From contig JAJEKV010000312.1 in the NCBI GenBank assembly GCA_021234155.1, positions 208,501 through 272,500 on the forward strand: a DNA stretch of 64,000 nt, given 5' to 3'. Numbering within the stretch: the first letter of the stretch is position 1; every line of letters begins with the position of its first letter. Positions 1,195-52,716 of this stretch are shown piece by piece. Source of the stretch: Isoetes taiwanensis (taxonomy: Eukaryota > Streptophyta > Lycopodiopsida > Isoetales > Isoetaceae). The notes beneath the pieces are model-generated. The model was not told the DNA's origin, did no database searches, and saw only the letters and a program-made list of their open reading frames with translations. The position numbers and the translations under genes were made by a program.

Positions 1195-1643
1195 AAACTG
1201 GATATCACGAAGTCCGGCAATCGGCCATAGATGGAGGAGTTCTTGGGCAAGAGCCCGAGGAAATGGGGAAGAGGGCAAACTCCGGCGTCACGGATCGAAG
1301 CCCCAAATAAAGGGGTCAATTTGGGGGCTTAACGTGGGCCGTCCAGATTTGAGATGGACGGCCGAGATTTAAATGTCTACACACACTCTGCATCAAGGGG
1401 CTTATTTGGGGCTTTTGTTGTGGGCCGTTCATCTAAGAGATGGGCCGGTAGAGATCATCTGTACCAAAATTTTGGTACGCCAACAAGAGGGGTGCTTGGG
1501 GAGTTACGAGGTGGCACCGTCTGGACCGTCCATCTCAAAAGATGGACGGCCGAGATCAATCTCTACCAACATTTGTGGCATCAATCTCTACACCATTTGT
1601 GGCACTGCCAACATTTGTGGCACTCAATATAATTGTATATATA
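1195..1643 (+). repeat. subterminal region and terminus of TATATA-TIR element (right-type end)
   Basis: This 0.45-kb block ends in ATATAATTGTATATATA at 1627-1643. It is matched in inverted orientation by 52,287-52,716, including GGGGAAGAGGGCAAACTC, CCCCAAATAAAGGGG, a stretch with ACACACACTCTGCATCAAGG, and the self-complementary CCGTCCATCTCAAAAGATGG. The NAD-malic enzyme fragment lies about 170 bp inside this end. Short open frames here are shared with the inverted copy only because the DNA is shared; they do not look like genes. The element's other end lies outside the window. Confidence 0.75.
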
Positions 1644-1679
1644 AACAAGTGAGTGTACTATGAGGGAGTATACAAATTC

Positions 1680-2870
1680 TGAGCCATCCAAACTTAAGAT
1701 TCTCTTAAGATTTCCCTAGATTCTCAAAGATTATCCCAAACTTTCTCTAGATTCCTCAAGATTCTATTTAGATTCTCTTAGATTTCTTTAGGTTCTATCA
1801 AGATTTTCCTAGAAAACACACTTAGTGTGAAAGATTCCCTTAGATTCTTAGGATTCTACAAAGATTCCTCTAGATTTCAAACGTTATCACAAGGATTCTC
1901 TAAATTCTCCAGAATTCTATGTAGATTCTCCTAGATTTTGTTAGATTCTATAGAGATTTCCCTAGACTCTTGAAGATTCCATCAAGATTTCCCTAGAATC
2001 TCAAAGATTTTATGAAGATGCGCTTAGATTCTGCTACATTTTGAGCCATTCAATGAAGATTCTATAAAGATTCACTTAGATTCTTGAAGATTCAGGAAAA
2101 AGTATCCTAGATTCTCAAAGATTTAAGGAAGATTACTTTAGATTCTCTTAGTCCCATAGATTACTTAAGATTCTCTTAAGATTCCCCTAGATTCTCAAAG
2201 ATTATCCCAAATTTTCTCTAGACTTCCCAAGGTTCTATATACATTCTCTTAGATTCACTTAGATTCTATCAAGATTCCCCTACTAAACACACTTAATATG
2301 AAAGATTCCCTAAGATTCCACAAAGCTTCCCCTAGATTCTTAAGATTCTATAAAGATTCCGCTAGATTTTCAAACTTATCACAAGATACCTCTAGAGTCT
2401 CCAAATTTCTATGTGGATTCTCCTAAATTTTGTTAGATTCTACGTAGATTCCCTTAAATTCTATGTAGATTCCCTTAGATTCTACAGATTTTCAAGGATT
2501 CTCAAAGATTTTATGAAGATGCACTTAGATTCTACTAGATTCTCTACGATTCTCTTGAGATTCCCATAAATTCCCTCATTTTGTTGAGGTTCCCCTAGCC
2601 TCCTAAACATCATCTCCAGATTCCTCTAAATTCCCCGTGTCTCTATGTAGATTCTCCTAGATCCCCTTAGATTCTATGAAGATTCCCCTACATTCTCAAA
2701 GGTTTTATAAAGATTCCCATATTATCTCAAAGATTTCCCTTGTGATTCTCATAGATTCTCAAAGATTCTCTTGAGCTTCCTCTACATTCTCTAAAATCCT
2801 AGGAAGATTCCCTTAGATTCTCTTAAATTCCCATAGATTCTGTAAAATTCTAAGTTTCCAAAAAGAAACT
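1680..2870 (+). repeat. degenerate AGATTCTC/TTAGATTC array
   Basis: About 1.2 kb is built from imperfect, irregularly spaced copies of AGATTCTCNNAGATT and CCTAGATTCT-like words with no fixed period. A similar array in reverse orientation occupies 62,745-63,462. Both arrays abut the same conserved block (2878-3043 and 62,565-62,735), so array and block form one repeat unit. Nothing codes here. Confidence 0.8.
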
Positions 2871-2877
2871 TAGTATT

Positions 2878-3043
2878 CGATCAGATTAGCTCCAACTGCG
2901 ACGGAATGATGCCAAAGTACCACTCATTGGAAAGCTCTCGATGAGAGGAATTCGATGGTATGGGTCCCACCTTCATCCGACCCCTCTACTGCAAGTTATC
3001 GGCCTTTGAAGCTGATTATAAAAAAGAAGCTTCCTAGAAAGTC
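2878..3043 (+). repeat. conserved 165-bp repeat block, copy 1
   Basis: The block contains TTAGCTCCAACTGCGA, GAAAGCTCTCGATGAGAG and CATCCGACCCCTCTACTGCA. It recurs in the same orientation at 47,874-48,030 and inverted at 62,565-62,735. It has no open reading frame of note. It is probably a piece of a dispersed repeat; the family is unknown to me. Confidence 0.8.
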
Positions 3044-3404
3044 CACCCATTAATGCTGGTGCCACCTCATTACCTTTTTATTAAATAAGGGTGCCACCTC
3101 ACCTCTTTTAATAAAGAAATTGCAATTTAATAAAGAATTTAATGGTTAGGATTTTTCCTCCCCCTTTTGATCCAACGGTTAAGATTGACTGCACCAAAAA
3201 GCACCTTTTAAGGGACCTTCCTTGCATCTTCCCTTTAAAAAATCAAGGGCCAAGATTTCACACGTGCCCGATCAACGGTTCATGGATGGGGTGCATGGCC
3301 CATGCATGGCCCATGCATGCCCCCCCATCAAATCCAAGGGCCATTTAAGTGCCACCTCAAAAATTAGACGGATAGGATTAATCTCTACCCACATTCATCC
3401 AAGC
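3044..3404 (+). repeat. mosaic repeat module with GTGCCACCTCA words
   Basis: The first part (to about 3200) continues the similarity to the inverted copy at 62,440-62,560, with GTGCCACCTCACCTC and AACGGTTAAGAT. The second part (3238-3400) matches the direct copies at 9662-9822, 29,339-29,503 and 52,065-52,228: AATCAAGGGCCAAGATTTC, GTGCCCGATC, repeated CCATGCATG palindromes and ATCAAATCCAAGGGCCATT. Here the two modules are joined; elsewhere they are separate. Confidence 0.7.
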
Positions 3405-6400
3405 TTAAACATATCTGTGCCTAAAGTTCAGTGTCAAGAATTAAGTTAGAAGAAATCAATAATAGTGGAAGTTGGATCAATCAATTGTTCTGTCACACAA
3501 ATGGGAGTATGCATCTAGACTAAAGTTGTGAAATTTTGAGTTAAGTCCCTTGCCTGATAGCTATTTGATGATCATCTCCAAATAGGAACTAATATGTTGC
3601 ATTGCACATTCAACTCCTAATTCCCTTGTAAAACACTTTCGTCCTTTGCTTTGTTAGAAGATTCTCTAGCAAATCGGTTGTACTATAAAATTATCTGAAA
3701 TCGCGGGTAGTTTGTGATTGAGATTTTTTATGAATATTTTGGCATAAAGGTTTTAAGTTAATGTGAAAGTTATGATCGTGGTTCAACTTTGGTTAAACTT
3801 CATTATGAAGTTGAGTTGTTAATGTTTTAGTAGGTTTGATCCACCACGATTGTCTTATGCCGTCATGGTAATTGTAAATCATGGTAAACTTGAATAATTT
3901 AATATGAAGAAAACTAAGACCAATCATTTTACTCAAATTGTTAGCCATTGAGAATTTGAGCAAGAAGTTGTTAATTGGTTGAGGAGTGCTTATTTGACTT
4001 GAACTTATACTTAGAACCTCACGTTAAAAGACCACAAGGAAGAGAAAAAATGTGTTGCACGATCAAATTTACAAAGCAGGCAAATTAAATGAATCCAGAC
4101 TATTGCAAAACCCCAACATCACAAAGAAGACATCACCAATAACACTACAACTTCTTCATGTTGGTAGGTTAAACGTGCGATACAAATTACACATAGTGAT
4201 TACCAACAAAAAAACTTGTGTGTATACCAATATTTGTAGCCCCGAGTCCAAGAAAATTTAGCATTTTCATCTCCCTTAAACCTGCCCCCTATTTGTCAAA
4301 AAGTCACAAAAAACAATGGTTAGAACATATTGCCATAGTTATAGAATCAATGTTACTGGCCCATGGACATTGTAAATATAGGGATTCTAATGCGTAAGAC
4401 ATTTTGCCGTGCGACATGCATGCAAAAAATAAATAGATGAGATGTTTGATTGTCACCTCATTAGTGCTAGATATTCACCTTAAAGAGTATATATGAATGA
4501 AGCCAATGCAAATACAAAGAAAAACACAATTAAGGGATAACTTATGACACATTCCTTTTATGTGGTGCACGTTTAGGAAGTTGGCTTTTAATTTGGATTT
4601 TGGTGCTTAGGTTAAAGGTGAGCTGCTTCAGAGATGGAATTCCTTCAGCTACTTTCTAGTCTAGCTTATATTTTCATGTTAAAATAAAGTATATGGCAGT
4701 CTCAAACCTTAGCCAACGTACATGTACATATAAAACAACACTATATTTCATAATTGGGTTGATCATGATTTCAAAGGTAATGACCAAGAACCAAGATCAC
4801 ACCTTAGCCATAAAATGACCACAAATTAACAGAAATTGTTTGGCCGCAGATTACCATTTAACAAATAGGTCTTGGGATATGGTTTAAAGGTCAATGAGAG
4901 ATTTTTGCCTCTCAGATTAAAGGGATTAAAATAAAAAAGAAAAAAGAAAAAATGAATGTCTAGTCTATAATGAACCTCATAAATTTTCACTGCAAATGAA
5001 GTTCACACACCTTAATTTAAATTATGAAACCTCACTTATTTGCATTTGATCTAGATGGTATACAAATAATGTTTATTTCCAAACCATGCAAATGCACTAA
5101 AAGGCACTAAAAGCTAAAAATATTTTAAATGCAAACTGCACTAAAGCCAAACCATTTTAGATTATAAGTTGAATGCAAGACAGGACAAGTTGTCCAACTT
5201 CACAGGCACACTTTATCAAAGATTAACTGGGCTTGCATAATTTTCATAAGCACAGCAAGATTATGAAAACTATGCAACCTCCCTTCACATTCACAAAGAC
5301 ATCAAAGGGCATTTCCACTTGGAAAATTACATGTTTTCGGTGCTTGGGCAGGTTACGTTGGTAACAAATAAGTAAAAGATATCGAATTCACACATGAGAG
5401 TTGAGTGTTCAAGACATTGCAGATCTTATTGCCCAAAATAGTTCTTCTTTCCTTTTTTTTTTCAAGTGCCAAATGTTTTAAACCAAACAGCTAGAACTCT
5501 CAGCAAAAGCAGAATGAATTTCATTTGTGACGTTTTCACCCTCTCAAACTACAAATAGAAACCAAACATAAAAGCTCAAACCTGTTTATGGACATAATTT
5601 ATACGAGTACCTCTAAGTTGAGGTCGTGTCATTTGCCAAATTTTAGCATTAGTGGCTTTAAAGGGCAATTTAAAGTGACTTAATGAGTTTATTTAAGATT
5701 GTAACTTTCGAATTTCCCCCGACTTAAACTCCTTAAACTCCTGAAAATCAACCTGGAAAACGTCATCACCAAAAGGCAACATGAAACAAGAGCCATAAAA
5801 TAGAACCGTGCAGAAAACTTAACACGCATACATTTCTCATAAGCGAGCAGCGCACATCATACATATAAATCTCAAAAATTTGTCTTTGCTGTATGAACCC
5901 CTAGCTAGAAATATTCGACATTAGGTGTGAAGATTAGAGTTATTTGTTTCCTATAGCAATGACTATAATGAAAGCGCACTTAAGCTACCAAGAAAAATGC
6001 ATTCCTTTATTATAAAGAGAGATGAGTTTATTCAGGCTATTTTGATAGCTAGTAGCTAGAAGTCATGCATGCTTACTTTGGTCTCAATCTGCTGGGTCTA
6101 GTCAAGATTTCTACTGAAAGAATGGATATAGTGGATCGGCCAATCTAGTTGTTTTACGGGGAAAGAAGATGGACACAAACTTGTTCTTTGGAATCGGTGG
6201 GACCTCTGTGTCTTTTTGTTTACCTTTTTCCCTCGCCCGCATATCACGACAAGCGAAAAGCAGTTACAATCCGGAGGAGATGGTGGATGACGAGGACACG
6301 CCCAAATTTCATATAAGTCATTAACAAGAGCTAAGCGAATATCCGGAAAAAGGAATTCTAGATGGTTATTAACATTTATCTTTTAAGAATAAAAAAAATT

Positions 6401-9400
6401 GGTCGTGTTTTGGCAATCATATTTTATGATTGCATTAGCGAAAAAGACATGTTTCTACTTGAAATACACTTCCAGCGTTTTTAGCGGTTTGTACAAAGCT
6501 CTTAACGGATGCAAGAAGCATATGAGTTATAAGATGTAACAATTATACCACTTGTGGGTTCGCATGTGTGGGTCTTACGAAACTCCATTTAGCATATGAG
6601 AGGGCACCCAAAAAGGGGCCAAGCGGCGGTTTGTTGACATCTTTGAAAAATGCAGTGTGTCGAGGGGATACATGGAATAAAGCGGATGGCAACACTAACA
6701 AAAAGGGTGGAGACAAAGGCGCTTGATGGAATTAGTGATTGATCCCTTTCTTGGAAAGGAGAGTAAATTCATAATAAATGTTAAAAGCAGCTTGAATGGG
6801 AATGATCAAGGACCTCACGAACATTGGATCCAAAACATTATGAAGTTCAATCATTTAAAAACTCTGCTGATCCTCTCAATCTGGTAATAAAAAATCACCT
6901 CCCAAACTTTCTTTTTGGTGATGAATGCGTTATGCAAGTGCATTCTGCTGGTACGAAAAAGCTTCCATCTTTTAGTTTGTTGTACACACTTGGTAAGCAT
7001 TAAGCACCTGAATTAAGTTAGACCAGAACTATGAGACATTGAACTGTTAGCACAAATGCAACTATCTGGAAGGAAGGCATATGCTACGACATCAAACATA
7101 TGGACAGCACATTAATGACAAAGTTATAAGAGTTGACAGTATGCTAGGTGAAGTAGAAGCCCAACATCCGGGTGTTCTCATTCATCATCTGGTTTGTCAC
7201 CCAGTAATTTGGCTAGAAGATGTGGAAGATCCTCAACTCTACCTCTAGCAATAAAAAGCATTGGTTTGTCCATCTACCTCCCATGCAGCCTAGAATAAAG
7301 AGCATTGGTTTATCCATCGATACAAGCGATTAACGGATAGGGGCATACAGCGCCACATATTTGCTTATGATGGAGCAAGCGCACTGTGAAACCAACAATA
7401 TTGATTATCGAGAAATGGGTTTACTAGAAAGAACGAGACATAATATTTAAAAACCATGGGCGCATGCCAAAGCGATCCATAAGATCTGAATATGGCTATG
7501 AATGACATCAAACAGAAATTTGTTGTGCACACACAAACTTAAAAGACAAACTCTTCTTTGTTCTTTAAATGCCCGAGAAAATACAAATCGGTTGTGCACG
7601 TCATCGCCCTTTTGAATGACCTCCGACATCAAGTTGAGGTTTCAACCTCTCAGACGTCTCGAGATTTTAACATCTTTGCAGAACATCCAACACGGGGGCG
7701 AGCATGAAAATATGATGTAATGGAGAAAAAGAGAGGGATGAGAACACGCAAATAAACAACCTCTCAAATCAGAAATAGAAATGGGAGTCATTCATCTTGG
7801 CATTTATAACAGAAGCATGCATTGAGCAACATTTTGCATAAACAATATACAACATGAACTTATACCTAGTGCAAAATAAAGACATGGCTTCCAAAGAACA
7901 CAGGTCCCCTATTGTGCACTCCCCTATTGTGCGGGCAAAGGACCCTAGATTTACCCAACAACGGCAAAGAAGTTATCTTGAAGTTAAAAGAATTTATGAA
8001 GGTGCAAACTTTGCAAATCTAGCAGATTATGGCTTGATTTACATGGAAACAATAGGATTTAGTGAATTTTCCAAATACAATTTAACATATAGCATACGCT
8101 ACCCTTTCTTGCATTCATGTACATCAAAATGATGACAACAATGATAGATGTTTAAGGCTTCCACAATGTAAACTTGTGTTACATATGAAACCATATACGC
8201 TTCTACATCCACCTACACTTTAAAACTTACGTCCTCTTCACAAGCTTCACAAGGTCTCTATAACTCATGAAGAAAACTGGCGGGGAAACTTTGTTTGTAG
8301 GCTATTATGACCATCGACAACTGTAACAGACTGCAACATAAATTCACCTAGGTAAATAGAAAATACCTGTAATGTCATCTGTGTAGTTCGCTCATCAGCT
8401 TTTGCTCGTTTCTCTTTGCATTTCGGTTCCGGAACAACGGAAAACAACTTCATGTGGCGAAGAAGGTACGAAATCTAGCAAAAAGACCGACTGTTTTCGA
8501 AGCATAGATACCTATACTTTAAAATCCGTAGCAGATACCCAAAAAATTCTTTGTTCCATCAGATCAATCATTAGACGATGAGTGTTTCAAGTAGACAGAA
8601 GCGAATGCTAGATTCACGTCCTCCACAAGTTCACTGAGAAGGGGATCCGATGATACTTAAGCCGGCAGATATTCAAACCTTCAAGCCTCTGATGTGGGCG
8701 ATTTGGGCAGTTTGGCTCCAAATCCATACGATCCAAAATCTTTAAGCCGATCAAAATTTTCGAGCTGACACCGCTTGGTACCTGGCAACCAGCTAAAAAA
8801 AGAACTCAAAAGGAACCGGCTGGGCCAAAAAAGATTGAAGAATATGGAGGGGAAGTACAGAGCATACGATTCAGAGAATAAGAACCGCACAATTCTGGCG
8901 ATACAAAGCTCAAGCAAGTTGCTTCCTTGTTCACGAACAAAATTTCATCTCGGCACTTCTAAAACCTGATCAAAAGCGAGAAAAAAACCTTGTCCTGGAG
9001 CATCGGCCCCAGTGACCAAGCTCCTGGCCATGCGAATAATGAAAGTCCACCATAGCCTAACAAATCCAAACAAATCCCTGACGCACCTTCGGTTACCGGA
9101 GTTCTTGATGTTGTTGAAGCACGCATCGAATTCCTATAACCAGCTCTCTTTTTGCACTCAAGAACCTTGAGGAGCTCGAATCCCTGGCTGGATCGCAGAC
9201 GAAGAAGCTGCCTTCAATAAATGAATATTGGCTTATATCCATTAATGGTCTTTGACATGGTTTTGACACGTCTAGAGGTAAACGATGCAAATTTTAGGAG
9301 GAGAGAAGATTTTTTTTTTTTTCCTGCCATCTCGTGGTGAGGAGTCAGATACGTGGCCTGAAGTGGTGCCACCTCTGCAACTACATTAATTTCAGTGAGT

Positions 9401-9470
9401 TATTAATTAATAATGGTCATATCAAACAATGCCCCAAGATCACAAATTTTTGTTGAAGGAAAATGCCCTA
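3405..9470. other. long AT-rich stretch without a recognisable gene
   Basis: I see no convincing coding region, tRNA or structured element on either strand. Open frames are short (under about 95 codons) and match nothing I know. One minor item is a minus-strand frame ending at 7178 that reads VEDLPHLLAKLLGDKPDDE before a stop; it resembles an acidic protein C-terminus, but I cannot assign it. This is probably old decayed repeat or intergenic DNA. Confidence 0.4.
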
Positions 9471-9477
9471 ATTTCAA

Positions 9478-9857
9478 GGATGGACGGTCTACATAAAATG
9501 CCCCAATTGAATCCCTAGATCTAACGGGCCACATCAAAAGCCCCAAATAAAGGGGGTTGCTTGGGGTTGATTGAAGTGTCACCGTCTGGACCGTCCATCT
9601 CAGAGATGGACGGCCGAGATCAAACTTTACTAGCAACTTCCTTGCACCTTCCTTAAGCTTAGAATCAAGGGCCACGATTTCTCACGTGCCCGATCGACGG
9701 CCCAGGGATGGGGTGCATGCCCCATCTATGCCCCATGCATGCCCCCCCATCAAATCCAACGGCCATTGTGGCGACACCTCAATAAATCGACGGCCAGGAA
9801 TAATCTCTACAAACTTTCACCCCCCCATAGGACCCATAATATAATTGTATATATATA
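9478..9857 (+). repeat. subterminal region and terminus of TATATA-TIR element, third right-end copy
   Basis: The block matches the right ends of the duplicated segments at 29,160-29,534 and 51,885-52,259: GGATGGACGGTCTACATAAA, CCCCAAATAAAGGGGG, the self-complementary CCGTCCATCTCAGAGATGG, ATCGACGGCCCAGGGATGG, and CCCCCCATAGGACCCATAAT before the terminal ATATAATTGTATATATATA (9839-9857). It is followed directly by a TA microsatellite. No matching left end was seen between 1.7 and 9.4 kb, so this may be a truncated or solo end. Confidence 0.75.
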
Positions 9858-10901
<1,044 letters not shown>

Positions 10902-10933
10902 CACTACAAGAGGAAGGGGGTATTAGAGTCAGT
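10902..10933 (+). repeat. CACTA left terminal inverted repeat
   Basis: Thirty-two bases starting CACTACAAGAGG and ending TAGAGTCAGT. They are perfectly complementary to 22,538-22,569 and continue imperfectly into the subterminal repeats (TTTAGCGTCAG against ATTAGAGTCAG). Confidence 0.92.
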
Positions 10934-11765
10934 TTTAGCGTCAGAAGGATATTTTTGGTGTTTTTTGAGGTGAAAACAATGTTCTGTAGTTATTAGCAGC
11001 ACTTATAGTTAGATATTTTTCTGTTGCTAATTCTGACGCTATATCTGTCTCTATGGATGACGTTATATCATTTTAACCAATCTAACGCTATAGCTGACGT
11101 TATAGCTGAGGTAGGAGCTGATGCACTATGAGTCAAAGGTGTTAACATTAGGTTCAAACATACATGTCATCTGACTCTAATTTTGACGCTATATCTGACT
11201 CTAAAGATGATGCTATATAACTTTAACAATCTAATGCTATAACTGACGTTATAACTGACGTAACAACTGATGCACTATGAGCCAAAGGTGTTGGCATTAG
11301 GTTCAAGCATACACGCCATCATCGACTCTAGTTCGACCTTACAATTGACGCTTTATGCTTGACTTTATCTTTGAACTCTACGCCGACGCTATGTCTGACA
11401 CTATCATTAGTTCCAATTCTGACTCTACCAGTGACTCTAGTTCTGACCTTACAATTGACGCTATGCTTGACTTTATGTTGACCTCTACTTCTAACGCTAT
11501 GTCTGACACTATCATTAGTTCCAATTCTGACTCTACCAGTGACCCTATGTCTGATGCTACTATTGACTCTATTTCTAACCCTATGTCTGATGCTACTATT
11601 GACTCATTCAGTAGTATGAACTCTACTACTCATGCTAACATGTGATCTAACTCTTGTTTGTACATTATGTCTAGAGTTGATGTTATCATTGACACTATGT
11701 CTAACTTTATACCATTGACTCATATAGTATGCACTCTATTTATAGCCATGCACTTCAGTGAGGGA
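10934..11765. repeat. CACTA left subterminal repeat array
   Basis: Dozens of imperfect copies of the words TGACTCTA, TGACGCTA and TCTGAC are spaced at roughly 12 bases. The first few are in the GAGTCA/GCGTCA orientation and the rest in the complementary orientation. In CACTA elements such subterminal motifs bind the TNPA-type protein. The 96-codon frame at 11,355-11,645, rich in S, D and T, is a by-product of the repeat. Confidence 0.85.
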
Positions 11766-12012
11766 ATTTGCAAGGCACTCCCTATATTTCAGAGGACAGG
11801 CAATAAAATTTTCTGCTTTTCATGTGAAAAAAAAAATTAAAATTGAACTTTTCATTTGACAAGTAAAAATCAAGAATGCAAATTTTAGACAAAAATAAGC
11901 AAACTATTGTATAATCAACAAAAAATGATGTTTCAATAAAAGACAATAAACTTTTAGTGATCCATTGCATAATATAATCAAAGTAGCCAAAATTCAACAG
12001 ATTATGTTTCAA

Positions 12013-13139
12013 TCAAAAGTAAGAGGTCCTGCACGTCTCTCTCTCTCCTAACCAATGAGAAAGGCACCTTTGCCAATCAATAGTCTCCACAGTTTCATTT
12101 GAAAGACATATTGCCATGCTTGTATCCAAAGTTTCAATGTTCATGCGTGATCTCAGATCTGTCTTTATACGGTTTTGACAAGAAAAACCCCTTTCACATA
12201 TAGCTGTACTTCCAGGAATAACCATGGATATTTGCCATAATTTCATTAATGCAGGATAGCTATTCCACCAAGAATCACCTGCACATGCTTCGTCTCTACA
12301 AATACTCCAAGAAGCATACATGCCTTTGTGCTTTCCGACTCTATACAATATTCCAACAAAATCATCCTTCTCACTCAAACACCTTTCTGCATCTACCTTT
12401 GAACCAAATATCTTGAGTAATTGCGCAAGCCATTCATCTGTTTCTTTATCCCTATCCTTGTATGCAGGTACATAAGATGCTGGACTAAAGAACTTCAAGG
12501 CATTAAAAAGATCATTCACATCAGCAAACCTTTTTTTCAGTGCATCTATAATCTCCTTCACGAATGTTCTTGCCATACGGATACAATGTGGAAGAGAACC
12601 TTCATCTTGTGGCACATCATTCAAATCCAAAGCAACATCAGCTACATTAACCTTTCCAGGACATGGCACATACCTTAGTGCATGATTATAGGAAGTGCCT
12701 TGCCCATCTGTAAATGATAAAACTCCATTAGTTGTTGCCTTTAGAAATTTAGACAAGTTTGTGACCTCCTCATAAAATTTAGTTTCGTGCAACTTTAACT
12801 GATGTAAGATCGCAGGCATCTCACTCCATGAATTTGTAATACACTCTTACGATCCTCTTCATAGAGGTCAAGAAGAGTATCTAGCTCAGCATGTCTCTTA
12901 CTAGACCTCCCCAACCAAGAATAAATCTTGTTGGCAACTTTATCAACAAAAGTGAAGATAGAGGCACCAGATTCAAATGTATCTTTTATAGCAAGGGCTT
13001 CCTTATGAGCAATGCAATGAACTCCTCTTATATGCGGATTTTTAGATTGAAAGCGTGTAACAACACCAGTTCGGCATCCTGTCATAGAAGATGCTCCATC
13101 CGTAGCAATAGCAATCAAGTTACTTTCATCTAAATCCAT
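12013..13139 (-). pseudogene. hAT-superfamily transposase-like (DUF4371 / hAT dimerisation) remnant
   Basis: Two overlapping minus-strand frames form one protein of the ZNF862/DUF4371 hAT type. The N-terminal piece (13,139-12,795) has IAIATDGASSMTGCRTGVV and GVHCIAHKEALAIKD, typical of the RNase-H-like core. The second (12,819-12,013) continues from MPAILHQL through WWNSYPALMKLWQISMVIPG to ICERGFSCQNRIKTDLRSRM, the C-terminal hAT dimerisation region, ending shortly after WQRCLSHWLGE. In relatives the first piece runs on through a short RWLSRG-like segment before MPAIL; here it goes from GVR straight to the second frame, so a small out-of-frame deletion at about 12,810-12,820 joins them. The BED finger and the front of DUF4371 are missing upstream of 13,139. 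It cannot make a full transposase. Confidence 0.85.
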
Positions 13140-13567
13140 ATTATATCCTTTTCTGATTTTCCCTTTAATATTTTTTAATGCTTAATTGTTAATTGGCTGG
13201 CTTTTCTTTTTCTTTCTTTTATTATTGGGTGGTTTGGTTTATTACTAGGTAGGCACTTAATATAAAATATAAAAGATATATTAAAAAAAAAAATCACATA
13301 TAATAATAAAAAATGACAAGCAAATATTGTAATGGTGCCTTTCATATGACAGGCACTAATTGTAGGCGCATGTCCTCGTGACGAGCAAACTTCATAACCT
13401 GACTTTTCATTTGCAATGTATATTTTCAAATTGCAAATTTTGACAGGCCAAAGTGCTCAAGACAGGCACTTTACTATTCATTTTAAGCCTTTTGAATAAT
13501 ATCATATGCAAAGATACCAAAAGAGACACTTGCCATCTGCTCAAATAACCATTTGTCTATACACTCT
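13140..13567. other. AT-rich gap between hAT remnant and TRIM
   Basis: No gene is recognised. The stretch contains A/T homopolymers and TATAAAATATAAAAGATATA-like sequence. An 84-codon minus-strand frame (13,175-13,429) has no recognisable domain. Confidence 0.4.
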
Positions 13568-13712
13568 TGTAACGGACCCATGGGAGACCGCTCGAGTAGA
13601 TCTTGGTGTCGTGTTCCCGAGACACCGACATAAATGGGTAGAAGCGACTACTTAAAAACATCTAGACGGTTTTGCCCAGTTGGTTAAGGGCATGTCGGTT
13701 AGGAACGTTATA
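13568..13712 (+). repeat. TRIM 5' LTR
   Basis: 145 bp, beginning TGTAACGG and ending CGTTATA, directly followed by the primer-binding site. Its last third contains TTGCCCAGTTGGTTAAGGGC, a good match to a tRNA A box. A B-box-like GAGTTCGAGTC lies about 50 bp further on in the internal region. Confidence 0.88.
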
Positions 13713-13840
13713 TTTGGTATCAGAGTAGGGCTCGAGTTCGAGTCTCCATAAGGGCAAGTACGACCCGGAATACCATTGGATGGTAGGTCATGACTTGGTA
13801 TGTGATGTTCGAGGACGAGCATAGTTCTAGTGGGAGAGAC

Positions 13841-13985: not shown

Positions 13986-14229
13986 AATCTTAATATAACT
14001 ACTCTTTCTCTAGATTTTTCACTTTCTCAAAAGTCCTCATTTCATACATACCTATGTGGCTAGAACAAGATTGCCAAGGCTACGAATATACAATGAAGTG
14101 TGCATTATCATATTTGTCTCATATGATTTAAAAGTTCACCAATACATATTATTAGCAATTGTATCAAGAGGATCTCAACACAATATTCCTCAACGACAAT
14201 GACATATACTTAAAAAAAAAATCATTGAA

Positions 14230-41100: not shown

Positions 41101-42432
41101 AATGACGAGACAATTGCCTTCAATGAATCCCTTCATTTAATCAACAGCATTCTAACACAACATAGTACCAACATCATGGCATTTGGTCTCCAACTACAAC
41201 CTCGTGTTGGAAGAAATGTCATGTATGAATTACAAAAATTTCCTGACCATGGGCAGTACTTAGATAAGGTGACGCAAATGACAAGCATAATGAATAATGA
41301 CCAACAAAAGATTTACGGCTTCATTCGAGAATGGTTAGAATCCCCAGAAAGCAACCAACCTTTATTCATCGATGGAAAGGCCGGCAGGGGCAAAACATTC
41401 CTGTTGAATTGCATATGTCTGTCTATACGCGGCAACCAAGGTATAGTACTTCCATGCGGTACGACAGCATTGGCAGGTCTCCAATACCCAGGAGGACGAA
41501 CGACCCACTCTCTGTTCCAAATCCCTGTGGAAGAAAATAATGCAGCGCTTCACTCAATGATAGAACATGATTCTGGAGCAGCAGAATTGCTCATTGCAAC
41601 TAAGGTCATTATCTGGGATGAATTCCCAATGGCAAATAAAGCTGTCATAGAAAGTGCCCATCATTTATTGCAAAGACTATGTAAGAATAGTCTTCCCTTT
41701 GGAGGCAAACACTTTATCGGTGCTGGAGATTTTAGACAAGTCGCGCCTGTTGTCAAGGGAGGAGGAAGAAATGCAGCATATAACGCATCCATAAAATCCT
41801 CTCCACTATGGCAAACTTTTCGTGTGTTCAGATTAGAACAACCGGTACGCAATGCTCGTGACCCTGAACTAATGCATTTTGTCGATCGCATCGGAGAGAA
41901 TTGGGAGGAGTCCACTGTCTCACTAGATATCTTCAACATAACTACTAATGTAGAAGATAGCGTAGAATTCCTTTATCCATCCAACGTACTTCGAGATTCA
42001 GATTCATGCAAGAAACGCAACCTTTTGTCGACGATCAATAAGAGCGTTGATAGTTTTAATGATCGCATTCTTAATAGAGTTCCTAGTTATGATAAATCTT
42101 ATTATAGTCATGATCATATCACCGAACAAGATGAAATTATACATGACCACCCTTACGCAACATCAGATTTCCTTAATAACTTCACACATTCCGGAATACC
42201 TAACCACGAACTAAAGCTTAAGGTAGGTGCAATATGTCATATTATGAAACGGCTAGACATGGAAAAAAGGTCTAGTGAAAATGCGAGAGTTATGATCGTA
42301 TCAATGCACGCCTTGAAGTTTGTAATGGTAAAAGTATTAGATGAAAGGAGTCAAGAAGATGCATGTAATTATCCGATCTCTAGAACTCGACTTCTTTTAT
42401 CAACCGGAGAATCGGCCTTGGACCATTCATAG
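38062..42432 (+). CDS. Helitron RepHel protein (HUH replication initiator plus helicase)
   Basis: 1456 codons. Residues about 216-245 form a Cys-rich finger (CSWNKRCTYCQIP, then CCNKGK), followed by the PPLPPLP segment typical of plant Helitrons. The Rep domain has GRPTLFITMTTNTDWPEI, EFQKRGLPHAHLVL near residue 610 (HUH motif H-A-H) and YLYGYIYKG, with Tyr724 and Tyr728 in the catalytic two-tyrosine positions; the usual Lys between them is Gly. Rep nicks and ligates single strands during rolling-circle transposition. The Pif1-like SF1 helicase follows: Walker A GKAGRGKT at 1105-1112, Walker B VIIWDEFPM with Asp1186-Glu1187, and GDFRQVAPVV at 1222. The frame ends early at 42,432. The last motifs continue in the +1 frame, and one extra C near 42,389 explains the shift. 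Confidence 0.95.
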   Translation: MYPKHIPQRHLTLDKNMGSCSHSYIDHDQSMTGLETTPTSMVISTAPTLLESNGSIAIEEQNPNPIEVNTICIGIDMSGMPMASSSQKQIDLNLNENPRNRRHERLINLARKRRGRDTIEGSVIDGVSSQVESLCSSDLHATPMITPTNSGHVDFPTFQTTSMSTATVDMSSIVTNSNKLTGSLNSSSQTQINSSIHWQAQAQHMNLAMRHTYVMCSWNKRCTYCQIPLLNVEKNGFCCNKGKWLLPPLPPLPTRLNDLYNMQEFAQLARRMNNLFCFSVLGVSGGFVNLNFPSSVTITGRTYHRLRPTSESGHPIHWYIYDESERYTHARDQRVPFQWVAIVSSILNQVNPFIQNLRTMGSMHLQSAYITIQGAIASNEIAAIADVNNTAEISPRIAGFWVRNEGEPTFMNILDPMYEPLQYPLFFPHGTIGWGLGNEHGFTQLQWYRCRLLHEERFLQLGRLCGEYLVDMYSRVEDARLNYFRTSTFRNRRVQYDEDYSERENDDRNDIILPSSFLGCQRWCSVQVADALVLSRSKGRPTLFITMTTNTDWPEIRARLRPGQNASDVPMIVIRCFHGRLQRLKELLHKFFQCISYIITVIEFQKRGLPHAHLVLRTEPDIPIECIDDIISAELPTDQVLCGQVQKFMIHRHTERCSPNGNSCCYNFPKDINPTTYLDSKGYVQYRRRSIDDVWVVPYNAFLLHELDCHIMVDIASTVHVFSYLYGYIYKGFDNANFRVSQDRHSTSIPSSLGNEHQIGTESSSKNNDQRENTTSQLSGSAPSEQTTRRPPRDEIQDYLRARYLSATEAAWRTMSYDITNKSPAVKCLPLHLPHSNTRSLLDRYFLRPLNLEFDAFTYIQYYEQYSLTTYNPALAIEYGTHLEQEQEGFTRNIVKRRVRQPIVCRIRLLLPRVGEAFYLRQILLHRPVRTWDELKVVNEQQYETYQQAAEAGGLLAAHNEAVLVMEEAVSLSLSPTQLRFLFAMLLLDQGPAIELWSKFKIPMSIDLLDEYSNDETIAFNESLHLINSILTQHSTNIMAFGLQLQPRVGRNVMYELQKFPDHGQYLDKVTQMTSIMNNDQQKIYGFIREWLESPESNQPLFIDGKAGRGKTFLLNCICLSIRGNQGIVLPCGTTALAGLQYPGGRTTHSLFQIPVEENNAALHSMIEHDSGAAELLIATKVIIWDEFPMANKAVIESAHHLLQRLCKNSLPFGGKHFIGAGDFRQVAPVVKGGGRNAAYNASIKSSPLWQTFRVFRLEQPVRNARDPELMHFVDRIGENWEESTVSLDIFNITTNVEDSVEFLYPSNVLRDSDSCKKRNLLSTINKSVDSFNDRILNRVPSYDKSYYSHDHITEQDEIIHDHPYATSDFLNNFTHSGIPNHELKLKVGAICHIMKRLDMEKRSSENARVMIVSMHALKFVMVKVLDERSQEDACNYPISRTRLLLSTGESALDHS

Positions 42433-42712
42433 ACGTCAATTACCCCTTCGACTATCATATGCAACCACTTTCAATAGCTGCCAAGGATTGACGTTGGATC
42501 GTGTTGTTATTGACCTACGTACCGAGGTATTCGCACATGGCCGCTTATACGCAGCTTACTCAAGATGCGAAGCGAGAGAAGATGCTCTCATCCTACTCTC
42601 ACCGAGAATATTACGAGGTGCACCAAAAATATTGTCTACAAGGAGTTATTGTGCTGATGAAGTACGTTTTCCTCAATCTTTTTTCTGTACAGGTCATGCA
42701 AGAAAACGATAA
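42341..42712 (+). CDS. Helitron helicase C-terminal motifs, out of frame
   Basis: From about 42,390 this frame reads FYQPENRPWTIHRRQLPLRL, SYATTFNSCQGLTLDRVVID, and HGRLYAAYSRCEARED. These are SF1 helicase motifs V and VI (usually KSQGQTLxxV and LYVALSR). It follows directly from the main frame after a one-base shift. Without it the main protein lacks the arginine finger, so this copy is probably not active as read. Confidence 0.85.
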   Translation: MKGVKKMHVIIRSLELDFFYQPENRPWTIHRRQLPLRLSYATTFNSCQGLTLDRVVIDLRTEVFAHGRLYAAYSRCEAREDALILLSPRILRGAPKILSTRSYCADEVRFPQSFFCTGHARKR

Positions 42713-42954
42713 AGAACTAGACTCCCAATAAGGTGCGTCCTCTCCATCTTTCACAGTTATCACAAGCATGCTTTCTTCAACTTTCATTACACGGGTTACA
42801 TACTGAAAAAAAAAACAATTGGACTTCAAATAAGGTACATCCCTCCACCTTTAACAGGGTACTATTATCGCCCATATGATATTGATCCCTTTGTTTAATT
42901 ACCATGAGATTCCCCTCATTTGTGTCTTATCAAAATGAAAAAATAAAATCCATC

Positions 42955-43285
42955 CATCGCGGTGATGGTTTAGTGGTAAATCCATTGGTTATGGGATGCC
43001 CCCAGCCAGGATCAAAACCCATTGACTAGCATCGGATGGAAAAAAGAGGAAGAAAAAAAAAAAATAACCATCGCGCTTGTGGCCTAGTGGTTAGGCTATT
43101 GGTTATGGGAAAACCCCACCCAGGCTCAAAACCCACTGACTACCAACGGATGGTGGAAAAAAAATGAAAAAATCATCGCGGTGATGGTCTAGTGGTTAAG
43201 CCATTGGTTATGGGCAACCCCCACCCAGGCTCAAAACCCACTGACTACAACCGGATGGTGACCAAAAATAGTTAAATAAAAAAAA
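42955..43285 (+). repeat. three tandem tRNA-like units with A-rich tails (SINE-like)
   Basis: Units start at 42,955, 43,069 and 43,174 and each opens CATCGCG. Each has an A-box-like TGGTCTAGTGGTTA (unit 3), TGGCCTAGTGGTTA (unit 2) or TGGTTTAGTGGTAA (unit 1). Then come ATTGGTTATGGG and a B-box-like CAGGCTCAAAACC (CAGGATCAAAACC in unit 1), and an A-rich run of 8-30 bases. Box spacing fits RNA polymerase III internal promoters. They are not functional tRNAs: no acceptor stem closes and the loops do not fold. This looks like a short tRNA-derived SINE duplicated in tandem, or a tRNA-like array at the Helitron's 3' flank. Confidence 0.65.
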
Positions 43286-43299
43286 TGCAAAATATGACA

Positions 43300-43550
43300 C
43301 AATAACAAAGTGGGAATCCCATGGTGATTAAAAACAGCTTTCATGTATCATATGGGCACATGAACACAAGGAAATAACATGGGTTCAAATCCCATATGTT
43401 CGTGAATAAGAGAAATGTTCGCGACAAATAAGCGAATCATATATAGCGGCAAGCACGGTAGTAGCCTTCTTTATTGTTTGATCTGCGACCGCCTGCTGAT
43501 TCTTCTTCGATATTCCTTTTTTTCGGTAAACCCTTAGTCAGTTTCTCCTG
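43300..43550. other. spacer with tRNA T-arm-like sequence
   Basis: ACATGGGTTCAAATCCCATA (about 43,379) resembles a T arm with B box. AGAGAAATGTTCGCG at about 43,410 recurs at 43,766 next to the GC palindrome. Confidence 0.4.
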
Positions 43551-43946
43551 ATGCGGCCTTACATCTGTGCTCCTGATATCCCCAACTGGCTAATCTACAT
43601 GGATGCTCTCTGCTCTCAAAAATACTTTGCATCCACTCTTGAATATAGTTCTGAACTATATGACCATATCATTGTGTCTTTATTATCGAAACATCAAGTC
43701 TCATACTTACAAATTCATCCATTCCAAATTTACATAAATCTACCCTGCAAGAGTGAGTTGACGAAGAGAAATGTTCGCGGCGGCCTTGGCCGCCGCGATA
43801 AATTTCTTGTATTAATAAACGACGGCACAAATGACATCTTTGCCCTTTTTAGAATTTTCCTTGCAACTTACTTCCCCTTAATTAATGAACTTTCCCTTGG
43901 TAACACTTTTCGATGCGTGGTATTTATCAACCACCGTCATGTTTGA
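43551..43946 (+). CDS. unrecognised 131-codon frame
   Basis: It starts MRPYICAPDIPNWLIYMDAL. The frame crosses the GC palindrome at 43,775-43,798 and ends inside the left arm of the inverted repeat at 43,916. There are no domains I know. Since it spans two structural repeats it is probably fortuitous. Confidence 0.15.
   Translation: MRPYICAPDIPNWLIYMDALCSQKYFASTLEYSSELYDHIIVSLLSKHQVSYLQIHPFQIYINLPCKSELTKRNVRGGLGRRDKFLVLINDGTNDIFALFRIFLATYFPLINELSLGNTFRCVVFINHRHV
43775..43798. repeat. perfect GC palindrome (11-bp stem, 2-base spacer)
   Basis: TCGCGGCGGCC, TT, GGCCGCCGCGA. The stem can be extended imperfectly by AAGAGAAATG/AAATTTCTT on the two sides. It is by far the most GC-rich spot of the region. 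A hairpin of this kind ends Helitrons, but here the bases 10 nt downstream are CTTG, not CTRR. Confidence 0.9.
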
Positions 43947-44089
43947 ACAAAAAAAAATACACGAGGTTTTTGTGGACTTAATCAATTTTTTAGTGAGTGT
44001 CATGTTAAAACCACATTGAGAGAAAAAATACACGGAGTTCTTTTCAGTTCATGCTGGTTCAAACATGACGGTGGTTGATAAATACCACG
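43916..44089. repeat. 33-bp perfect inverted repeat enclosing about 108 bp
   Basis: Arms 43,916-43,948 and 44,057-44,089 (CGTGGTATTTATCAACCACC and onward) are exact reverse complements. The spacer holds two further A-rich related segments (AAAAATACACGAGG and AAAAAATACACGGAG). It has the shape of a foldback/MITE of 174 bp. The flanking bases GATG(C) and ATTG show no clear target duplication. Confidence 0.85.
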
Positions 44090-44104
44090 ATTGTTTTCGA
44101 TGCA

Positions 44105-44350
44105 CCATCGATGGTTAAATGTGGGCCACCTCACCTCCCCACTTCGTCTAGAGGCATGGACCATGGTGCATGCCCCAACACCACATTTATTACTTTCTCT
44201 TTTGCAATGCCACATCAACAAACCTCATTAATGGTGCATTTATAATATATATGCCACCTCAAGATATTTGCGCCACCTCACCAATCATATTAAACTATAT
44301 TTTCTTTGTTGTTTCCCTCAATATTTTTAACGGTGAAGATCGCACCTTCT
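44105..44350 (-). repeat. mosaic repeat module M2, copy 2 (inverted)
   Basis: Reverse complement of 29,537-29,790, with the same order of words (GGGGCATGCACCAT, AATAAATGTGGTGTT, GTGAGGTGGCGC, AAATATTGAGGGAAA, GATCTTCACC). Beyond it, 44,365-44,440 carries the GGGGGCAATGTC module also seen at 31,262. Confidence 0.8.
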
Positions 44351-48302: not shown

Positions 48303-48660
48303 ACATTGCCTGATTTGGCACTGTTTTGGCCCATTTCTGCTAGGAATTTGGAAAATGGACGCCTAGCGTCAATTGTGGACCTTCCAGTGACCTTTCCGCC
48401 GGATGTTCCTGTGCAGAAAATAGAGCTTTCATTTTGGAGTTATGGCCATATTTCTACCCGACTGTAAAACTTTGGCAGCAAATACATTGCCTGATTTGGC
48501 ACTGTTTTGGCCCATTTCCATTTCTGCTAGGAATTTGGAAAATGGACGCCTAGCGTCAATTGTGGACCTTCCAGTGACCTTTCCAACGGATGTTCTTGTG
48601 CATAAAACAGAGCTTCAATTTGGGAGTCATAGCCACGTTTCTAGAAATCTGACTGACATC
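48303..48660. repeat. tandem repeat, about 183-bp period, two units
   Basis: ATTGCCTGATTTGGCACTGT through GACCTTCCAGTGACCTTTCC occurs at 48,305 and 48,485. The first copy lacks a 6-base ATTTCC. The duplication's left boundary (48,391) is inside it. Confidence 0.9.
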
Positions 48661-48801
48661 CATACCGTTCAAGAAATCTACAGCAGCAGCAGCTTTTTAC
48701 AAATCAAAAAACTAAGATTTATCATGACATTTCCTCATTGGCACTTTCGTTAAGGTTGCAATTATGGATCTAACTGAGTGATTGCAGTAGTTCCATAGTT
48801 G

Positions 48802-49298
48802 TCACAGGACAAATAGAGACCACAATAGCCAGCTTATTTCTTCCCAAAAGGAATGAGTTTTAACATTTGTTTTTAGTGAATCACAGAGCAATTGCTGATG
48901 AACATTGGAAAAGGCAGTAAGTAAATACTTAAGGCACTTACTTTGCACTGGATTTGGCATCATCAAGTTTTGGAAAGTATCCGCTTTCTGTTTCAATGTG
49001 GCATAGATCTCTTCACTTCTTGGATGGCTTCTATCTTTCACAAAGAACTCATGCACGTTGTTATCAATCTCGATCCATGCCATTGCAGTTTTTCCATGCA
49101 CCTGCACACTGCCTAAGCTCATCTATTCGCACAGCATTTGACCACATACATGCCTCAGAATAGATGCCTAACATAAGCATATAGGCGGAGCCATCACATC
49201 GAGATAGCTGAACAATTCTTACATAGCAGTGTCTTCCCATCTATTAGACCACTGTCGCATTTGCCATTATGTATTGCCTGCTCTGGTGCAGCCATCCT
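48802..49298 (-). pseudogene. PPR protein E/E+ domain fragment (copy B)
   Basis: Identical in content to the copy at 26,074-26,570: DGSAYMLMLGIYSEACMWSN, frame change, then MAWIEIDNNVHEFFVKD and RSHPRSEEIYATLKQKAD. It has the same frameshift and the same missing PPR and DYW regions, which shows the damage predates the segment duplication. Confidence 0.85.
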
Positions 49299-50849
49299 TA
49301 AGCTTCTTTCATAAATTTCTCACGTGTGAATGCCCCATCAAGAACCATAAAGGACACATTTTTTGCATCCCATTAACAAGTGTTTGAGCTCTTCTTGTAG
49401 ACCAGCTTCACGCTGGGACTTATGTTCTGCATCTAATGATAAGCAAGAATCTCAAGCAAGCATTCATCTATCATACAGTAGCTTTTCTAAAATGGCAACA
49501 GCATTTTGCTATAACCATGTGCATATCCTTGCAAGACCAAAATGTTAGGAACCTCAAAGAATCATAACTCTCTCTATGCTCTTCAAATCACAAAAAACTG
49601 AAAAAGAGTTGCAGGCTATCACATGCCTTGCAGAGAGCAGAGCGCTGGAAGAACCAGCATCTATGTTGTTCTTTCCCATTGCATTTCTGTAAAACCAAAG
49701 TCCCTGTGAGCATTTAATAAATCTGAAACAAAAATTTGCTATCCAACCAAGATTCTGGCCAACAATCGGTAGCTCTGCCATAGCCAAAAGGTACAGAGTG
49801 AAAATCAGCATGCCAAGAAGGTGGACATTTAACAAGATTTTGCGGGAACCAACTTTCCCGAAGCAAATCCGTCCCAGGCACCATAGCTCCGACAGAGAAA
49901 ACTGGATTTGCACTTCCAAAATACAAACATGGCGCATCCATAGCTGCCCCTGTTTCGTAGACAGTTTGGGCAGAGAATATGGAGACGTTCAATGGGACAG
50001 TTCTTTCGATGAAGCCGCTGGCAACAGACATTAGACCAGACAGCCAAATCAGCACATAAGTCGGCCAAAGCAGAGACCCAAGCCTACAGCGCCATCAAAT
50101 TCAAGATGATGCACCTCAATGTTTGAATCTCTTACCCAGATCATGAACCGGCCATATCTTTCCTGATTTGAGCATAGGCCATCCAAATTCGGAAGCACCC
50201 TATTTCGACAAATATCTGCCTAATTTTTGTACCAATCTGCAAAGACGTTTGAGGAATTTGCATCTTGGCAGACACTGGAACAAAATGGAACACCAGAACA
50301 GTGGCAGACACAATTGGCTGGGTCGCGTTACATTTGTTCACACCGTCAAACTAGGATTGATACCTTATATGAGAAAGAAAGCCAAAATGAACAGGCAATT
50401 CTAATGAACAACGAAATACCAAAACAATGGCAGGCAACACTGTGCAAAATCCCAACGCTAAATAAAAAATGGAGTCATTTTAAAAGAGAAGTGACAACTG
50501 TGTCATCATTCTAGATGCTAACCTGCTAGGAGGCATAACGCAATGGCAGATCCAGTGCCTTCTTTTTCAAGATTTGAAGCTGGGAGCAAAATCCTGAAAA
50601 AGGCCTCCGGAAACACAGAAAGCAATAAGCACAAAACCCCAAAATTGGCAATGGATACCATATCTAAATCGCTGCTGCGTGGGACATTTGTCACTTCATA
50701 GAAACAGCCATTCTTAAAACGCAGGATAACTTGACCTGTGTCTGCCTCAAATAATAGAGCAACTCCGGCAGAGCCACTGTTAACTACGAACCTCATTTAT
50801 TCTTTGAAAAAGCTTCAAGCCTGCAAAGCATTCAGAGAAGCCGCCATAG

Positions 50850-51473
50850 TCAGCTCAGAATGCATCGAAGGAAAACACATGCAAACGTAAGTTCGAGCTC
50901 TGCATTAAAGCTCCAGACATGTCCAGATAAAATGGGCGCAACTCCCACTGTCTTTTGATCTCTCCTCTTTATATGTAGAAAATAGAAAATGGCAGAAATT
51001 TCAATAAGTTTCGGGAAGGTTTTGGCAATGCCGGAATTCACTGGCACTGATAACGAACAAAAAATCCTTTCCAATACGAAGAATGCTTTACTCCTGCCAT
51101 AGCAAAGATGATGCCACCGGGAAAGAATCGCGCTTCTGCTAATAATTGACTGTTGAGAGAACCATAATGGAGCAGAACCCTGAATTGAATACCACGAAGC
51201 CTGCAAAATCAGTCTTGCCTTTGTAACAGAGGTTGCCAACAGAAAAAGAGAATCGCCTCCAGCTTCTTGAATGGGTTGCCAACTCAAGTCTGGGCCTCTG
51301 CCCAGATAAACACAAGGATGATGCCGCCACCCTGCCCGCAAACTAGCAAAGTAAAGAAAATACATATAACCGTCCATATCGCAAATGCATTCCGCTAGTG
51401 CCCTAAGCAGTCTGGCCGACCCAAGCTTAGAAGCAGATATAGACCCGTCGTCTAAGAATGGATGTCTGCTCAT
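50850..51473 (-). CDS. unrecognised 207-codon frame (copy B)
   Basis: The longest open frame of the duplicated segment. Copy A breaks it through single-base length differences in A runs (near 28,335 and 28,205). It starts MSRHPFLDDGSISASKLG and has no known domain. Openness in one copy but not in its near-identical partner argues against selection on a protein. Confidence 0.2.
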   Translation of the reverse strand: MSRHPFLDDGSISASKLGSARLLRALAECICDMDGYMYFLYFASLRAGWRHHPCVYLGRGPDLSWQPIQEAGGDSLFLLATSVTKARLILQASWYSIQGSAPLWFSQQSIISRSAILSRWHHLCYGRSKAFFVLERIFCSLSVPVNSGIAKTFPKLIEISAIFYFLHIKRRDQKTVGVAPILSGHVWSFNAELELTFACVFLRCILS

Positions 51474-52286
51474 AGAGTTTTAGAGCCCTCACCTATGAAG
51501 ACAATCGCCAGAACAATCGCTCCATTGCCGATTCAATAAGAAAAGGATGAGAAAACCTAAACAATACAACACCAAGCTTTGCCAACTGATGGCTTTCACC
51601 GGAGCAAAGCTGCAAAGAAACCATCGGCTAAGGAATTCGGAAGAACTATAAGAACCCTAATCGTAGAAAAACAAAGGGGAGGTAACGAGGATCTGTAAAG
51701 GATAATCATAATCGGAAGGCTTTCGGCCTTCCCTTTACTTGCAAGAGGTCGCCATAGCTAGCTACGATGTTACAGAAGAAACGGGACTGAAAACTTGCCA
51801 CCTAACCATGTAATTAATGATGCTTAATTGCTGCCAGTGCCACCTCACCCCGTATTAAATGTAATACAATTTCCTTGCCAAGGATGGACGGTCTACATAA
51901 AATGCCCCAATTCAATCCCTAGATCTAACGGGCCACATCAAAAGCCCCAAATAAAGGGGGCTGCTTGGGGTTGATTGAAGTGTCACCGTCTGGACCGTCC
52001 ATCTCAGAGATGGACGGCCAAGATCAATCTTTACCAACAATTTCCTTGCACCTTCTTAAGCTTAAAATCAAGGGCCACGATTTCTCACGTGCCCGATCGA
52101 CGGCCCAGGGATGGGGTGCATGCCCCATGCATGCACCATATATGCCCCCCATCAAATCCAAGGGCCATTGTCGCGACACCTCAGAAAATCGACGGCCAGG
52201 ATGAATCTCTACATACATTCACCCCCCCATAGGACCCATAATATAATTGTATATATATAACAGATATATATATATATATATATCCT

Positions 52287-52716
52287 TATATATATACAAT
52301 TATATTGAGTGTCACAAATGTTGGCAGTGCCACAAATTGTGTAGAGATTGATGCCATAAAATGTTGGTAGAGATTGATCTCGGCCGTCCACTTTTGAGAT
52401 GGACGGTCCAGACGGTGCCACCTCATAACTTCCCAAGCCCCCCTCTTGTTGGTGTACCAAAATATTGGTACAGATTGATCTCGGCCGTCCATCTCTTAGA
52501 TGAACGGCCCACAACAAAAGCCCCAAATAAGCCCCTTGATGCAGAGTGTGTGTAGACATTTAAATCTCTACCGTCCATCTCAAACGGACGGGCCCACGCG
52601 TTAAGCCCCCAAATTGACCCTTTATTTGGGGCTTCGATCTGTGACGTTCGAGTTTGCCCTCTTCCCCATTTGCGAAGAACTCCTCCATCTATGGCCGACA
52701 TTGGGACCCGCGTGAT
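52287..52716 (-). repeat. left terminus and subterminal region of TATATA-TIR element (inverted copy of 1195-1643)
   Basis: It begins TATATATATACAATTATAT (52,287-52,305) and reads, as reverse complement, like 1643-1195, including CCCCAAATAAGCCCCTTGAT and GAAGAACTCCTCCATCTATG. Similarity stops at about 52,716. AGXT2 exons start about 110 bp further on. Confidence 0.8.

Follow-up and report, generated by a model that had tools for sequence, protein, structure and literature searches.

Gene-carrying elements with asymmetric ends, stacked mainly head-to-tail at (TA)n microsatellites of Isoetes taiwanensis

Introduction

A stretch of 64,000 nucleotides from the Isoetes taiwanensis genome (assembly GCA_021234155.1, contig JAJEKV010000312.1, positions 208,501 to 272,500; hereafter the window) contains two inverted copies of a sequence of about 430 bp, here called E, one beside a fragment of an NAD-malic enzyme gene and the other beside a fragment of an AGXT2-like aminotransferase gene. 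What kind of element carries one and the same end beside different host genes? The original prediction, made from the letters of the window, took both copies of E to be inverted ends of one element type, and read them as the signature of Pack-MULE or Pack-CACTA transposons. From genome searches and element comparisons, we conclude that E is the 3' end of elements of 8–10 kb and not a terminal inverted repeat (TIR), that the two copies in the window are the 3' ends of two separate elements, and that such elements sit at (TA)n, adjoining one another, mainly head-to-tail and usually beside a different element. Probably these are large DNA elements, non-autonomous and with a terminal motif in common, that have asymmetric ends and mosaic gene cargo and are stacked with a polarity imposed by a trans-acting enzyme.

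The shared end and its partner

The two copies of E (1199–1636 on the plus strand, ending in AATTGT, and 52296–52719 on the minus strand) are reverse complements, as had been claimed: 1201–1643 aligns with 52719–52289 at 88.9% identity over 451 columns, and both copies terminate in ATATAATTGTATATATA. They lie about 51 kb apart, and each marks the 3' end of a separate element. A search for inverted pairs of this end, the check proposed with the original prediction, was made with the first window copy as query, and the best 40 of 975 candidates were scored; two short rows (84 and 104 bp) were left out of the set, one of them a piece of about 80 bp with 78% identity on the opposite strand beside the E copy of contig C1047. 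None of the 40 scored copies formed an inverted pair within 20 kb. The E pairs that did lie within 20 kb numbered 12 and were same-strand throughout, 10 of them belonging to a single cluster on C1025. This cluster (C1025:15412779-15432521, loci L019 and L021) holds five same-strand copies, spaced at about 1.9 kb within two groups, and resembles a tandem array of truncated AGXT2 units.

The partner of E is a different sequence. Using a 450-bp query from the 5' end, we scored the best 40 of 278 candidates (seven short rows were left out), and 14 of these 40 matches had a listed E partner, which lay on the same strand in all 14 cases at a distance of 8.1–9.6 kb. Comparison of the flanks showed that the malic-enzyme interior is common to C11 (the contig of the window), C1072 and C1039, that the AGXT2 interior is common to C974 and C1058, and that about 2.6 kb at the opposite end is common to all five. 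Between the malic-enzyme and AGXT2 groups, identity in blocks of 250 columns was 86–100% in the 5' region, about 43–67% in the middle, which is thus unrelated, and 92–98% in the last blocks. The likeness between the two ends of an element is limited to 6 bp (ACAAGT and ACAATT), and no long TIR was present in the elements examined. The ends are therefore asymmetric.

These results bear on two explanations of the locus. A TIR transposon of the Pack-MULE or Pack-CACTA type, with the 430-bp sequence as its TIR, would account for the same end adjoining different host genes, but none of the 40 scored copies of E was paired with its own inverted copy within 20 kb; since the end that partners it differs in sequence and has the same orientation, the TIR signature of such elements is absent. 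The pairing data contradict E as a TIR and we reject that candidate, which leaves this explanation hardly tenable. A simple repeat lying by chance beside unrelated pseudogenes would agree with the lack of pairing among E copies, but E has one particular 5' end as its partner, in a fixed orientation and at a defined distance, and complete units some 9 kb long were found again with the same cargo at unlinked places; we give this explanation even less credence.

Captured host genes and mosaic interiors

Element A (C11:201148-210143), to which the first E belongs, lies mostly to the left of the window. Its malic-enzyme segment comprises exons and introns, runs antisense to the element, begins 229 bp left of the window and occupies window positions 1–1150 on the minus strand. 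The fragment matched the Pfam malic domain (E 1.9e-13) with a query translated by eye, in agreement with the element comparison. It is joined to E by a filler of 44–47 bp (1151–1197, plus strand), which also occurs at C907 and C1093 (L037, L038), and to which the match list adds C234 and C190. When the malic-enzyme interior was searched for with a 3.6-kb query (best 40 of 46 candidates scored), one match, on C1018 (L029), covered the malic-enzyme part alone. L029 is a multi-exon malic-enzyme gene (malic domain E 6.3e-17) with exons flanking the captured piece on both sides; L029:3365-4791 (1,427 bp) is carried with its introns and sharp borders at 92.3% identity in C1039, 89.2% in C1072 and 89.4% in C11.

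The second E is the end of an element that probably extends rightwards beyond 63 kb, judging from its matches on C1025. Beside this E, an AGXT2-like class-III aminotransferase segment with introns (52818–53380, plus strand, antisense to the element) is 88.7% identical to L032:2879-3441 of an intact donor gene on C1048. This donor is AGXT2-like in the same sense; the elements hold up to L032:2831-3441 (at most 611 bp), with 85.7–92.6% identity among the copies that cover most of it. The Aminotran_3 domain (E 6.4e-8) was scored on the matching C974 copy rather than on the window copy. Donors were sought for these two interiors, and both captured segments keep their introns at roughly 86–93% identity to the donor. 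The retained introns, together with the donors, indicate capture at the DNA level. Several parts of the original prediction are thereby borne out, namely intron-bearing malic-enzyme and AGXT2 fragments beside the repeats, different host-gene cargo within the same ends, membership of both fragments in elements of one family, and capture of genes as DNA.

The interiors are mosaics that include these intron-bearing gene segments. Matches to the malic-enzyme interior break at query positions 831, 1463, 2166 and 2863, and those to the AGXT2 interior at 1479, about 2086 and 2640–2711. Twelve matches span nearly all of the malic-enzyme interior: eight continue through the filler toward E, and four (C1064, C963, C509 and C1045) stop at the malic-enzyme border, with about 25 bp more of the gene followed by other sequence. 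The same body therefore occurs with different 3' parts.

Stacked junctions

The elements have ACAAGTNNNNGTACTAT at their 5' end and close with TATAATTGT at their 3' end, after which come (AT)4 and, in many cases, a short tail such as AAGG, AACAG or AAGAG. The 5' motif TATACAAGTNNNNGTACTAT had 2,076 exact matches in the genome against one for the reversed-pattern control, and C11 (353,588 bp) held 19 of the first 100 listed, a non-random sample since the listing follows contig order. Within these 100, consecutive 5' ends spaced 4–15 kb apart shared a strand 23 times out of 28, and those spaced 1–4 kb apart four times out of six. Across the genome, junctions with at most 30 nt between ends comprised 259 head-to-tail, 67 head-to-head and 36 tail-to-tail cases, with 0 matches in all controls. 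Random orientation would lead one to expect about 98 head-to-tail junctions from the other two counts, an approximate figure given that the patterns were unequal in strictness. Stacking at (TA)n with this strong bias formed no part of the original prediction.

The ends are often fused at a fixed spacing. Among 100 listed head-to-tail junctions, 38 had (AT)n alone between the ends, exactly (AT)4 in 35 of them. Tails at the other listed junctions included AAGAG (11), AAGG (10) and AACAG (7), and at least two tail-like units were present in 14. Genome-wide, the 3' tails include AAGG, AAGAG, AACAG, AATAG and GAGTG, sometimes in tandem, as in AAGGATAAGGATAAGG. A search for AATTGT-(AT)4-ACAAKT gave 135 matches (control 0), of which the 100 listed were all head-to-tail and none tail-to-tail, with 35 unlisted. 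In the listed matches, direct fusions thus join 3' to 5' ends often and 5' to 5' ends sometimes, with no 3'-to-3' fusion seen.

Neighbours in a stack are mostly different elements. Nineteen direct junctions in nine runs were compared, and the neighbouring elements differed in nine of ten pairs; the C963b/c pair was 97% identical on both sides, and the differing pair on C911 had in common, on the 3' side only, 173 bp at 90.8%. Self-concatemers therefore do not make up most of the stacks, and those made by rolling-circle replication are rejected for the nine differing pairs.

Search for an enzyme

To which group of transposons might these elements belong? Matches to three kinds of transposase or replicase were compared with 217 listed ends, the best 150 candidates of each kind being scored and 0.79 being expected within 20 kb of an end. 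Among Mutator-like elements (MULEs; 1020 candidates) and hAT elements (1150 candidates) no scored match lay within this distance, and among Helitrons (1813 candidates) there was one, which is no excess.

A possible but doubtful explanation is that the elements are non-autonomous MULEs of the SaTar type, which target TA microsatellites and form stacks with no nesting, and which here would be unusually long and have asymmetric or eroded TIRs. The (TA)n flanks and the stacks of different elements match SaTar descriptions and the genome has MULE transposases, but the elements have no long TIR, a 10-bp target duplication is not readable, and scored MULE matches, which cover a minority of the candidates, do not lie near the ends.

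Helitron-like rolling-circle elements, which may form tandem arrays, offer a less likely alternative. The asymmetric ends of the elements here, a probable stepwise capture of several genes and the swapping of 3' parts resemble what the accessible part of a study of maize Helitrons describes (PMC3288121). Many Helitron proteins are encoded in the genome and a long helicase reading frame lies in the window. Helitrons are defined by a 5' TC and a 3' CTRR with a near-terminal GC-rich hairpin. By inspection, with no dedicated search, none of these was seen at the ends found here (ACAAGT..., ...AATTGT-(AT)4-tail), and the differing stack neighbours, like the lack of excess near ends among the scored matches, argue against this group.

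An origin as hAT-type elements is very unlikely. In its favour, the (AT)4 between ends agrees with nTnnnnAn, the 8-bp target consensus of hAT elements; direct junctions have a spacing of 8 bp, and one stretch of the window contains a hAT fragment. Against it stand the absence of scored hAT matches near the ends and the termini ACAAGT and ACAATT, which we take to be unlike those of hAT elements.

Proposed mechanism

In the explanation that we favour, that of large non-autonomous elements stacked with polarity, a trans-acting enzyme would insert a newcomer at (AT)n beside the end of a resident. The 3' end of the newcomer would most often be joined to the 5' end of the resident, or the order in time may be the reverse, and stacks would thereby grow in a preferred direction. 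Cargo may have been acquired stepwise, and 3' parts may have been swapped between elements. A variant in which the newcomer enters the (AT)n at the resident's 3' end and pushes the tail downstream was unsupported in the two readable cases (element X of the window, described below, and C1072).

Several observations weigh against this explanation. No listed E partner was found for 26 of the 40 matches to the 5' end, one of which, on C1007 (L031), has its end at about 9.05 kb, where the sequence resembles the final 250 bp of E at 93%. The same-strand excess among the first 100 listed 5' ends is absent at spacings below 1 kb (two of eight) and at 15–40 kb (eight of 18). The tail-to-tail pattern was blind to direct (AT)4 fusions, so that the three junction patterns differ in strictness. 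At head-to-head junctions the commonest spacing is also (AT)4 (11 of 50 listed), and a 3'-end-like insert is present in three of these 50; since head-to-head (AT)4 junctions exist, the polarity is strong and not absolute. The flanks of the elements are (TA)n-rich or consist of other elements, where a target duplication is unreadable. Lastly, Pfam analysis of 20 of the 63 open reading frames of at least 75 amino acids from six whole array elements revealed no transposase; the same 20 gave two matches to sulfate permease and a zinc knuckle that fell below the cut-off.

We also considered cassette arrays, in which excised circles with joined ends (AATTGT-(AT)4-ACAAGT) would be integrated next to a resident element by recombination that acts in a set orientation at the (AT)4 core. 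We think this improbable; if it were true, different gene-carrying cassettes would be added with a preferred polarity in a eukaryote, like those of integrons.

Arrangement of the window

In the left part of the window there is a direct head-to-tail junction, in which an 8-nt spacer (ATATATAA, 1637–1644) separates element A from element X (1645–9848, plus strand). The extent of element X is deduced from its two ends, a 5' end ACAAGTGAGTGTACTATGAGG followed by a minisatellite that repeats about every 31 bp, and a 3' AATTGT followed by the tail AATAG. Such degenerate minisatellites lie near the 5' ends of several elements (1696–2850, 62736–63460 and L031:723-1851). A long (TA)n (9862–10003) leads from element X to the next 5' end, that of stretch Y (10004–29525, plus strand, delimited by end motifs), which has the tail AACAG at its 3' end and is possibly not one element. 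Within stretch Y lie a hAT dimerisation-domain fragment (12016–12819, minus strand), a DDE_Tnp_4 fragment of Harbinger type (15826–16104, plus strand) and a piece of an RBBP4/MSI1-like gene (23087–23320, minus strand; PDB phmmer E 1.5e-11).

Element F (48387–52250, plus strand) ends in AATTGT with the tail AACAG, and its left end is provisional. It is near-identical to 25659–29539: the latter and 48387–52264 are copies in direct orientation, separated by 22.7 kb, with 99.3% identity across 3,886 columns. Either the stretch was duplicated very recently or a single element has left two young copies here. Between them, the region 29545–44350 is bounded by inverted repeats of about 220–240 bp (79% identity) and encloses the long Helitron helicase reading frame (38062–42432; Helitron_like_N, PIF1). 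At 42937–43285 a repeat of about 105 bp occurs three times in tandem and, by eye, resembles a tRNA; a scan of the window with ARAGORN gave no tRNA. Element F meets the AGXT2 element in a tail-to-tail junction, (AT)4-AACAG-(AT)n-CCTT-(AT)4 (52251–52295).

Further cargo was recognised in the AGXT2 element and elsewhere. A piece of a PARP regulatory domain (54484–54690, plus strand) was identified by Pfam (PARP_reg, E 9.8e-7) with a weak PDB match (E 0.013), and an FKBP-type isomerase piece (59377–59769, plus strand; FKBP_C, E 1.2e-9) lies in a region that is absent from the C1025 relative and probably belongs to the same element. Among elements with related ends, that of L031 carries pieces of an Orn/Lys/Arg decarboxylase gene (E 1.9e-26 and 3.4e-12), and an array element on C1057 carries sulfate-permease pieces (E 7.2e-13 and 4.7e-17). 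Pfam or PDB matches gave an identity to seven cargo genes. With the elements as drawn, six of them (malic enzyme, AGXT2, Orn/Lys/Arg decarboxylase, RBBP4, PARP and FKBP) are antisense to their element and sulfate permease alone is in sense, a bias that is not significant and that depends, for RBBP4 and FKBP, on unsettled element borders. No firm identity was obtained for a WD40-like piece of the C974 element and an open reading frame of the malic-enzyme element.

Comparison with known systems

The closest known systems are the microsatellite-targeted SaTar and TAFT elements, whose long TIRs are lacking here. The comparisons that follow refer to the accessible parts of the papers cited. SaTar elements of guayule and rice (PMC5907723) likewise have (TA)n microsatellite flanks and form end-to-end stacks of different elements with no mutual interruption at the loci examined, and both microsatellite flanks and stacking of unrelated elements were found here, at the 259, 67 and 36 junctions given above. 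However, SaTar elements measure about 0.4–1.9 kb, have TIRs and are classed as MULEs, whereas those described here measure 5–10 kb, have no long TIR, carry genes and show a head-to-tail bias. The accessible part of that paper has 0 occurrences of orientation, head-to-tail, polarity, capture or gene fragment, and its authors speculate on circular intermediates (PMC5907723). MuTAnT of Medicago, and maize TAFT named in the same paper (PMC4486113), share the targeting of TA microsatellites, but MuTAnT elements have TIRs, are mostly 200–300 bp long and have a mudrA-like autonomous partner; no such partner was found for the elements here.

Pack-TYPE transposons (PMC8903248) are similarly non-autonomous and contain host-gene DNA from several loci per element, and such captured DNA is present here in the segments from the malic-enzyme and AGXT2 donors, introns included; yet Pack-TYPE elements are defined by TIRs, which these lack. 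Maize Helitrons (PMC3288121) resemble our elements in their asymmetric ends, stepwise capture of gene fragments and exchanged or multiple ends; the elements here differ in that no Helitron terminal signatures were seen, in their (TA)n siting and in forming stacks of different elements. Helentron-associated elements of oysters (PMC7492417) also have an internal tandem-repeat array and asymmetric ends, but occupy T-rich sites and bear inverted repeats in a subterminal position as well as a palindrome at the 3' end, and comparable gene cargo is unmentioned in the accessible part of that paper. The word microsatellite is absent from the accessible part of a review of gene capture (PMC13317346). 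Within a partial coverage of the literature, we found no report that joins TA repeats, transposable elements, head-to-tail arrangement and gene fragments.

Significance

We regard the system as a real one, of microsatellite-stacked, gene-carrying transposons with asymmetric ends. Short TIR elements are already known to stack at microsatellites. The units stacked here are large and asymmetric and contain copied segments of host genes, and where their ends are joined, head-to-tail order strongly prevails, at a fixed spacing of (AT)4. This bias and the constant spacing in direct fusions most deserve further attention, and the mechanism of joining is testable because plain (TA)n targeting predicts no polarity. 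As the stacks place unrelated gene pieces side by side, they are a possible source of new gene combinations.

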